From positions 31,403,377 through 31,467,376 of the forward strand of contig CM057159.1 of assembly GCA_029962745.1 (NCBI GenBank): DNA of 64,000 nucleotides, written 5' to 3'. Positions 6,001 to 9,000 of this stretch are shown here, one piece after another. How positions within the stretch are numbered: the stretch's first letter is position 1; the number at the start of each line of letters is the position of its first letter. Position numbers and translations under genes: made by a program. The stretch is from Echinometra lucunter (taxonomy: Eukaryota; Echinodermata; Echinoidea; Camarodonta; Echinometridae). The notes beneath the pieces were generated by a model, which was not told the DNA's origin, ran no database searches, and was given only the letters and a program-made list of their open reading frames with translations.

Positions 6001-9000
6001 TGAATTCTCTTGATTTGCTGATTTGAAGAATTGATTGTTGAACTTTGATGATGTTGATTGAAAATCAGGTTTGACAATTCAAATCATATGATAACAAACT
6101 TTGCTGAAAAGTGATCTTTCTTTTTCTATCTTGTCAGCATATCCAGTCATTCAAAGAATTGTGAAATAGAGCCTGTTAAGATGATTACTTTCTGTTAATC
6201 ACCAATTGTGTTATTCAGATAAAAGAGAGTTATGCAAAGAGTAGGCAAGCTTTGATATCAGTCTACAGCAATTAACATTGGTTACTTTCCACTCACATGT
6301 TAAGTGGTTACTGGAAAGAAGGAATTCCTTAAATGCTGTATTCACCGATATCGGTAGCCTAGCTATAGCTATTATGAAAGATATTGAAGATATGAGAGGT
6401 ATGATAACATCCAACATTATGATTATTAATACTGATTAAAATCTTGCTGTTGCTTCCATTTTACTATGTCTCTAACACTAACCTGGCATTTTTCAGGAAT
6501 CAGTGTATTGGAGCTTTTTTGTGGATACCCTTGTCTTTTCATATAGTGATGAATCTCAAACGGAATATTTGAATGTCCAAAAAGGAATAGTGTATTTGTA
6601 TGAGTAAGATATGTACTTATAAAATTCAACTGAAATTATCAAATAAAAAAATATTAATGGTTTTATTACAATATGAAACATCAATCCTGATATCGAAGAA
6701 GATTTGAGTATACTGGTGCTTCAAAAACAACAAAAGCAAGAGTGAATCTAGCATGAAAACAGAATAAAAAATTATTTTGTCCCATACTTCTTTTCCTGCA
6801 AAGTAACCCAAGGTTTTACCCCCATTGTAAGTCCAGCCAATCAATCATCTTACTCTCATCTTGCCCCATAAATGTACATCGAATGGTATCTCAAATTCAA
6901 GATGCAGCTAAGCAGGGAAGTTTTTCTACTAATCGTTGAGACCAGTACTCCACATTTGACCCCTTGGGGATCCAGTTTACCATCTTTCATCCACTTTGTT
7001 TGGTCCATTTTGTCTAATTTATTCCTTAGATGTACAACGAGTGGCATCTCAAGTTCCAGATGCAGCTAGGCAAGAAAGTGGTTCTACTGACCGGTGAGAC
7101 CAGCACTGACCTCAAGCTCTTGGCTAAGGGTAATGTTATCATCAGCACACCTGACCGTTGGGATGTGCTGTCAAGACGATGGAAGCAGCGTAAGAATGTC
7201 CAGAATGTCAACCTCTTCATCATTGATGAGCTTCACTTGATTGGCGGTGATAATGGAGTAAGTTTCTGTCATTTCAAAGAATAAACAAAATGTTTATAAT
7301 CAGTAGAAAGTATATCAAAACATATGTGTTCTAACATGAATTTTAATTCATTTATAATACTAGCTAGTTTCCTCACATATTAACCATAAAATTTGGCTTT
7401 CTGATGTACCAAAAATATATCCTTTTTTTTATCATGAATGATAATATCAACCATCTAATTCTGGATATGTTCTCCCAAATAATAGCATTGAAGATTGATA
7501 GATTATAATTGAACAAGTGCACATGTAAAATGAGTGGAATGTAGGATTTTATTTTCAGGTGGAGAATAGAGATCCACTAAACATAAAAGATTGAATAATA
7601 TCTCTTAATATGAAACTAGCATCAGATAAAGGTGTGTGATTTAATCATCATGGATGTTTATTTTCCTTTTTTCCTCCCTCTCTGGGGTTAGACAGTTCAT
7701 TTCCTTGATAGCTGTTCTCAGTGCTTTCCTGCTGTTTAATTAGTCTATGCAGGAGATGTCTGATGCTGTAATGTCGGGTCTCCCACGTGGTTTCCTGCCA
7801 TCAACTGTCAAGCTACATGTCCGTACCACCTCAGCCTGCACATCCTCATTACATGTGATATCCTTAAATTCCTCTAAATATTCTCTTCTGACAGCCTGTA
7901 CATCCTCATTACATGTGATATCCTTAAATTCCTCTAAATATTTCTCTTCTGACAGCCTGTACATCCTCATTACATGTGATATCCTTAAATTCCTCTAAAT
8001 ATTCTCTTCTGACAGCCTGTACATCCTCATTACATGTGATATCCTTAAATTCCTCTAAATATTTCTCTTCTGACAGCCTGTACATCCTCATTACATGTGA
8101 TATTTTTAAATTCCTCTAAATATTTCTCTTCTGACAGCCTGCACATCCTCATTACATGTGATATCCTTAAATTCCTCTAAATATTTCTCTTCTGACAGCC
8201 TGTACATCCTCATTACATGTGATATCTTTAAATTCCTCTAAATATTTCTCTTCTGACAGCCTGCACATCCTCATTACATGTGATATCCTTAAATTCCTCT
8301 AAATATTTCTCTTCTGACAGCCTGCACATCCTCATTACATGTGATATCCTTAAATTCCTCTAAATATTCTCTTCTGACAGCCTGTACATCCCCATTACAT
8401 GTGATATCCTTAAATTCCTCTAAATATTCTCTTCTGACAGCCTGTACATCCTCATTACATGTGATATCCTTAAATTCCTCTAAATATTTCTCTTCTGACA
8501 GCCTGTACATCCTCATTACATGTGATATCCTTAAATTCCTCTAAATATTTCTCTTCTGACAGCCTGCACATCCTCATTACATGTGATATCCTTAAATTCC
8601 TCTAAATATTCTCTTCTGACAGCCTGCACATCCTCATTACATGTGATATCCTTAAATTCCTCTAAATATTCTCTTCTGACAGCCTGTACATCCTCATTAC
8701 ATGTGATATCCTTAAATTCCTCTAAATATTCTCTTCTGACAGCCTGTACATCCTCATTACATGTGATATTCTTAAATTCCTCTAAATATTTCTCTTCTGA
8801 CAGCCTGTACATCCTCATTACATGTGATATCCTTAAATTCCTCTAAATATTTCTCTTCTGACAGCCTGTACTGGAAGTGATCTGCTCCAGGATGCGTTAC
8901 ATCTCCTCCCAGATTGAGCGCAACATCCGTCTGGTAGCTCTGAGTTCTTCCCTGGCCAACGCTAAGGACATCGCTCAGTGGTTGGGTGCTAGCCCTACCA

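Follow-up and report, generated by a model that had tools for sequence, protein, structure and literature searches.

Seventeen Tandem Copies of a 3' Splice Site at an Intron–Exon Border of a Sea Urchin Brr2 Gene: A Probable Mirage Minisatellite

Introduction

How can a cell find the right acceptor when near-equal copies of it stand in tandem upstream in the same intron? The question is raised by a gene of the sea urchin Echinometra lucunter encoding Brr2, the spliceosomal helicase that unwinds U4/U6. The original prediction, made on the letters of a 64,000-nt stretch of contig CM057159.1 (hereafter the window), left open whether the repeat was a kinetic trap, an autoregulatory device or a tolerated satellite, and supposed that it had no described equivalent. 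The analysis presented here indicates that it is probably a tolerated minisatellite of the type called "mirage" in amphioxus, with the last acceptor being chosen by exon definition.

The Host Gene

Exons were placed by means of a human Brr2 query sequence, and their splice sites were then set by the GT–AG rule and the reading frame. The resulting model has 20 exons in the window, from 96 to 20014, whose joined frame of 1060 codons is free of internal stops. The predicted product is the C-terminal part of Brr2/SNRNP200. In its first 590 residues, the Pfam families Sec63, DEAD and ResIII score above their cut-offs, while the best PDB matches of the part encoded by e8–e10 are U5 200 kDa helicase chains, one of them named hBrr2. 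In a protein search with candidates restricted to 0.55–1.75 times the query length, Brr2 of many animals is found among the matches listed (the best 120 of 1417 hits, with 7995 scored). The attribution of the locus to the spliceosomal helicase Brr2 is thus confirmed by the joined frame and by the Pfam, PDB and protein matches. The border had been named intron 8/exon 9, which is right for a numbering that starts at the first exon seen in the window and disregards any that lie further upstream.

The computed Strongylocentrotus purpuratus protein XP_011673163.1 is identical at 695 of 702 residues in an unbroken block, outside which it departs from the gene model, above all in residues 835–892. 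It joins LIGGDNG to PVLEVICS, corresponding to the regular e8–e9 junction, in which e9 follows the LIGGDNG of e8 in phase 0; this shows neither use of that junction nor an array in the S. purpuratus genome. A second gene, apparently fidgetin-like 1 (AAA domain; best PDB match Fidgetin-like protein 1), occupies 52838–63999 on the + strand and runs off the window.

The features around the border are as follows:

7030..7257, + strand: Brr2 exon e8, numbered from the first exon visible in the window, ending GGA/GTAAGT in phase 0 (gene model)
7258..8864, + strand: array-bearing intron of 1607 nt, with 1030 nt taken up by the units
7832..7841, + strand: left edge of the array, CAGCCTGCAC, a 9/10 match to the border decamer (sequence and TRF limits)
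7833..7834, + strand: AG before unit 1, the 17th upstream AG, with a different, looser tract
7835..8803, + strand: units 1–16, each with a decoy acceptor at its end
8804..8864, + strand: unit 17, of consensus sequence, with the true acceptor AG at its end
8845..8848, + strand: As of the branch-site candidate CTCTAAAT of unit 17, 17–19 nt before the junction (motif position in the consensus unit)
consensus unit, + strand: second branch-site candidate CCTTAAAT, with As 27–29 nt before the junction (motif position)
8862..8871, + strand: CAGCCTGTAC across the intron–exon border, a surplus partial copy of the array (sequence and TRF)
8865..9056, + strand: Brr2 exon e9, 192 nt, encoding PVLEVICS...LELHIQ and followed by the donor GTACCA (gene model)

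Anatomy and Variation of the Array

At 7832–8871, TRF detects an array of 61-bp period (17.2 copies, 97% matches). When the array is cut after each CTGACAG, 17 units are obtained at 7835–8864, 1030 nt in total; ten of them measure 61 bp and the other seven 60 bp. The 17 tandem units of 60/61 bp proposed for this interval are confirmed. TRF finds 12 arrays in the Brr2 gene, and only this one touches an exon border. No match to the unit lies outside the array in the 64-kb window. A 29-nt border piece has ten matches in the window at up to three mismatches, all of them exact and all within the array (0.00 expected from 100 shuffles); units that are one T shorter are missed because the pattern permits no gap. 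As expected for an animal sequence, a 39-nt unit piece has no exact match in bacterial or archaeal genome contigs or in viral contigs. Elsewhere in the window, further tandem arrays or duplications, whose units measure 31–235 bp, are located at 20457–20893, 27879–28020, 30460–30672, 34607–34745, 46616–46939 and 59119–59336.

The 17 units comprise eight distinct sequences, with the consensus unit occurring five times, and their divergence is low (a mean of 1.04 substitutions per pair). Position 5 is T or C, positions 28 and 29 are each C or T, a C is found once at position 12, and the tract has either two Ts or three. The two commonest variants occur in all four possible combinations, as would be expected from exchange between units, although recurrent change in the T run could have the same result. 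Units 1 and 17, at the edges of the array, are of common types. Each unit contains only one AG, formed by its final two bases. The variants are too few for a test of selection on splice signals among the units.

Decoy and True Acceptors

The true acceptor of e9 is the last AG of the array, 8863–8864, and successive AGs are spaced by 60 or 61 nt. Of the 16 unit acceptors upstream, nine have the same 23-mer from −20 to +3 as the true site and the other seven are one T shorter. The claim that 16 upstream AGs share their tract, a possible branch site and the first exon bases with the true acceptor therefore holds near enough, the identity over 23 nt applying to nine and the missing T to seven; the looser tract ascribed to a 17th AG is seen at 7833–7834. 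A position weight matrix (PWM) built from the 19 other acceptors of this one gene scores the true site at 7.46, the T-short decoys at 2.81 and the edge AG at 3.15, the gap between 7.46 and 2.81 being partly a register effect of the small matrix. Among the other intronic AGs, 22 of 840 score at least as high as the true site. The donor of e9 is middling, with six of nine consensus matches in a range of 5–8 over 19 donors. In addition to the two branch-site candidates listed above, the motif CTGAC of the consensus unit places an A 3 nt before the junction.

Together with the true site, the nine identical decoys make up a set of ten acceptors in one intron that share the 23 nt surrounding the AG and differ only in position and wider context. 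This is a natural test of acceptor choice: counting the junctions formed at each unit would tell first-come choice, scanning and exon definition apart, with no need for mutagenesis. Were all 17 unit-end sites chosen with the same frequency, only about 6% of the transcripts would be productive. Either context beyond those bases decides or the cell bears a large loss, and such a loss would be hard to bear for a gene presumed to be essential, so that context must be expected to decide.

From every one of the 17 upstream AGs, the frame reads P-V/A-H-P-H-Y-M-stop, with the stop at the eighth codon. These stops lie 229–1198 nt before the end of e9, so that splicing to any of the 17 AGs would terminate the frame prematurely, with an exon junction still to follow. 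According to the usual rule of nonsense-mediated decay, messages with such early stops would be destroyed. Since the units are near copies of one another, the decoy stops amount to one fact and are not evidence of design.

Several other readings of the border were considered. A NAGNAG tandem acceptor does not apply, the AGs being 60/61 nt apart and not 3 nt. Recursive splicing was dropped, as the GT after CAG/CCT in T-type units has the poor context GTACAT and C-type units are without a GT. With regard to intron gain by tandem duplication, the GT dinucleotides within the units stand in the poor donor contexts CCT/GTACAT and CAT/GTGATA. Antisense coding at the left edge of the array was rejected because the Pfam hits all fall below the curated cut-off. 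No known RNA family reaches its gathering score in 7000–9500. An RNA structure might loop out the array; raw folding energies, taken without a shuffle baseline, are −1.4 kcal/mol for unit 17, −27.0 for units 15–17 plus 36 nt of exon, and −124.7 for the array.

Known Tandem Repeats at Splice Sites

Mirage minisatellites have been described in amphioxus as tandem duplications across intron–exon borders, in Adh3 and in the globin genes BflGb6 and BflGb9, with both acceptor-side and donor-side cases (PMC3087553). According to that report, many of these repeats, not all, contain splice signals, and the Adh3 data together with globin RT-PCR suggest that regular splicing is undisturbed. Length instability, even somatic, is also reported there. 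The BflGb6 mirage has six and three units in two haplotypes and edge units that escape homogenisation, and the BflGb9 mirage is located at an exon end (PMC3087553).

The array at 7832–8871 spans an intron–exon border, with an exonic part of only 7 nt, and all 16 upstream units end in a copy of the acceptor. Tandem border copies, splice signals within the units and a minisatellite unit size (10–72 bp in Adh3) are features it shares with the amphioxus cases as reported. It differs from them in having 17 units instead of the six and three of BflGb6, in reaching only 7 nt into the exon, and in belonging to another phylum and to a spliceosome gene. Unlike those of BflGb6 as described, its edge units are not distinct, and it is known from one assembled sequence. 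The comparison indicates that the Brr2 array is the same kind of object as the amphioxus mirages, a striking new example and not a new kind of device, and suggests that mirage minisatellites occur in echinoids too. A limited literature search for splice-site tandem repeats in sea urchins returned nothing on the subject, so echinoid mirages may already be in print.

Intron 18 of human ABCA7 contains a VNTR whose 25-bp unit begins with a splice-donor GT, and a transcript that retains one unit is shifted out of frame (PMC5954066). The length of the VNTR is reported to correlate with disease and with skipping of the next, in-frame exon 19; stops arise from retention of a VNTR unit and from a cryptic acceptor, both of which increase under a block of decay (PMC5954066). 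In both genes, an intronic repeat adjoins an exon and its aberrant use is out of frame; as reported, the ABCA7 VNTR is on the donor side, whereas the Brr2 array is on the acceptor side and known from DNA alone. In human duplicated genes, internal tandem repeats at exon–intron boundaries can alter splicing (PMC2812944). These are likewise minisatellite units at such boundaries, but in the account given there they average four units of 30 bp, occur in segmental duplications and are linked to new introns. The claim of no described equivalent is therefore wrong, given that the amphioxus mirages, the donor-bearing ABCA7 VNTR and these boundary repeats are in print.

An RNA-dependent RNA polymerase gene (RdRp) of potato gained an intron by tandem duplication over an intron–exon border (PMC4974935). 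As in the Brr2 array, the duplicated segment contains the 3' intron end (branch site, tract and AG) and the exon start. The potato case, as described, involves one duplication in which a donor was recruited and a new intron arose; the Brr2 array seems to offer no good donor and to have given no new intron. Finally, the AG exclusion zone or scanning rule, by which the first AG downstream of the branch point is used and very close AGs are bypassed (PMC1431707), concerns acceptor choice and is not a class of repeat, as presented there; the Brr2 units are AG-free up to their end.

Probable Choice of the Last Acceptor

It is likely that the array is a tolerated mirage minisatellite and that its last acceptor is chosen by exon definition. 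Under the scanning rule as reported, the first AG downstream of a branch point would be that of its own unit, with the exception of CTGAC, whose own AG is too close. Correct splicing would thus need a branch point within unit 17, or else the CTGAC that lies 64 nt upstream, in unit 16. Probably the last AG is the one used, because exon definition would favour the shortest exon (192 nt versus at least 253 nt), real exon sequence and the exon's own donor. Splicing at a decoy would bring in the eighth-codon stop, and standard rules would then predict decay of the mRNA; the array would be a tolerated load that serves no function, perhaps with a small leak. Choice of the last site is not assured, since the donor of e9 is middling and the first decoy with the same type of tract is transcribed about 0.9–1 kb earlier, the lead of the earliest unit decoys being up to 970 nt.

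The low divergence between units, the stops at all 17 upstream AGs, the end of the array 7 nt into the exon with its surplus partial copy, the copies of exons in the same gene (see below for both), the regular e8–e9 junction of the computed S. purpuratus protein and the regular splicing reported in amphioxus all argue for this explanation. The edges of the array count against it, the BflGb6 edge units reportedly escaping homogenisation while units 1 and 17 of the Brr2 array are common types. On the sequence alone, nothing separates a kinetic trap or autoregulation from a tolerated satellite.

The decoys might instead act as poison acceptors that compete with the true site, so that a set or regulated fraction of Brr2 transcripts gets a stop and is destroyed; how large that fraction is would depend on unit number and splicing factors, and perhaps on Brr2 itself. 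We consider this unlikely. To our knowledge, Brr2 is not known as a chooser of 3' splice sites, and the unit variants are too few to show selective keeping of decoys. The early stop at each of the 17 upstream AGs, the identity of nine of the 16 unit decoys with the true site and the ABCA7 stops raised under blocked decay (PMC5954066) would all fit such regulation, but the stop is a single fact repeated by copying and not independent evidence, and the known mirages are reported to splice regularly (PMC3087553). In an extended form, which is decidedly improbable, a length-variable array of this kind would set Brr2 output: the odds of reaching the last acceptor would fall with unit number, making the array a heritable dial on helicase level, and it might even sense splicing capacity because decoy use would rise when exon definition weakens.

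It is more doubtful still that the U/C-rich tracts bind factors such as PTB or trap U2AF, with e9 (192 nt, 64 residues) being skipped in proportion to array length, which would yield a Brr2 with an incomplete C-terminal helicase cassette. The motif TTCTCTTCT, which we take to be similar to PTB sites, is repeated in each unit, and e9 is in frame, as is the exon whose skipping reportedly correlates with VNTR length in ABCA7 (PMC5954066). However, the lost piece belongs to the strongly conserved helicase core, and the skipped product would therefore probably be dead.

Least probable of all is an assembly error hiding far fewer units in the true genome: tandem arrays are often misassembled, and the BflGb6 mirage of the amphioxus draft appeared aberrantly assembled (PMC3087553), but the eight distinct units follow an aperiodic order and the longest exact repeat inside the array is 157 nt, which makes a simple duplicated assembly block unlikely, and the nearest run of N is more than 27 kb away, although the exact copy number may be off. 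The window contains two runs of exactly 500 N, 36188–36687 and 49264–49763, which are probably scaffold gaps.

Origin of the Border Repeat

A tandem frame can be cut at any point; the telling feature is the end of the array, which crosses the border at 8864/8865 and stops 7 nt into the exon. The 17 units account for 1030 of its 1040 nt, and the surplus of 10 nt corresponds to CAGCCTGTAC at the border versus CAGCCTGCAC at the left edge. Such a surplus partial copy would be the expected trace of a duplication between short direct repeats, and suggests the following origin for the tolerated mirage. The ancestral intron end would have been flanked by a short direct repeat, with one copy lying across the intron–exon border; slippage or unequal exchange between the two copies would have duplicated 60/61 bp, and further exchange would have spread the duplication to 17 units. 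Every unit would consequently carry the branch-site candidates, the pyrimidine tract, the AG and then the first bases of the exon.

Given the exon overlap of only 7 nt and the surplus partial copy, selection is not needed to explain why the repeat frame coincides with the border, and we infer that the coincidence is a mark of slippage. A 9/10 match to the border decamer 20–200 nt upstream is found at one of 18 other acceptors (that of e8, at a decayed exon copy) and at 95 of about 3000 random positions. For e9, the same test on the collapsed intron is partly circular, because the left edge belongs to the array.

Exon Copies Elsewhere in the Locus

Each Brr2 exon was aligned to its surroundings, a copy being an alignment that scores at least 24 within 3 kb, with the threshold of 24 set after the exon scores had been seen. 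Six of the 20 exons have a copy in forward orientation and none in reverse complement, while shuffled exon queries reach at most 17 (20 shuffles per exon). The copies sit in introns close by, at distances of 152 to 765 bp from the exons they derive from:

1474–1554, forward: decayed copy of a piece of e3 (alignment)
4329–4379, forward: decayed copy of a piece of e6 (alignment)
6866–6949, forward: decayed copy of a piece of e8, including the last 6 nt of the intron, with the AG lost
10516–10571, forward: decayed copy of a piece of e11 (alignment)
15123–15171, forward: decayed copy of a piece of e14, including the donor
17465–17502, forward: decayed copy of a piece of e16 (alignment), scoring exactly on the threshold of 24

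The copies of e8 and e14 resemble the acceptor-side and donor-side amphioxus mirages, respectively. The single copies are real, whereas it is only suggested that exons are duplicated more than other sequence. Random non-exonic 150-mers have copies in 26 of 300 cases forward and 12 of 300 in reverse; within the Brr2 introns the figures are 9/150 and 10/150, and elsewhere 17/150 and 2/150. By one-sided Fisher tests, the exons differ from all random pieces (p 0.009), from the gene's own introns (p 0.003) and from the reverse complement (p 0.01), these values being rough, as the random 150-mers can overlap one another and a single length represents exons of 71–287 nt. At a threshold of 20, the comparison (6/20 exons versus 40/300 random pieces) is borderline (p 0.05). 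The post hoc threshold counts against an excess of exon copies, as do the random pieces of the Brr2 introns, which match in reverse as often as forward. None of seven exon pieces of the neighbouring gene has a copy, a number too small to differ from Brr2 (p 0.13). Old copies of exons may stay recognisable because selection holds one partner still.

Within 15080–15215, the e14 copy looks like a mini-exon between an acceptor-like TTGCACAG and the donor GTGAGAT, and the sequence beginning AAGATTTAATTAGAACAAGGCC before it is repeated after it; judging from these flanks, it might be spliced in. An inverted repeat in a Brr2 intron (4375–4941) has arms of 257 nt that are 95% complementary and 53 nt apart, and the e6 copy at 4329–4379 touches its left arm.
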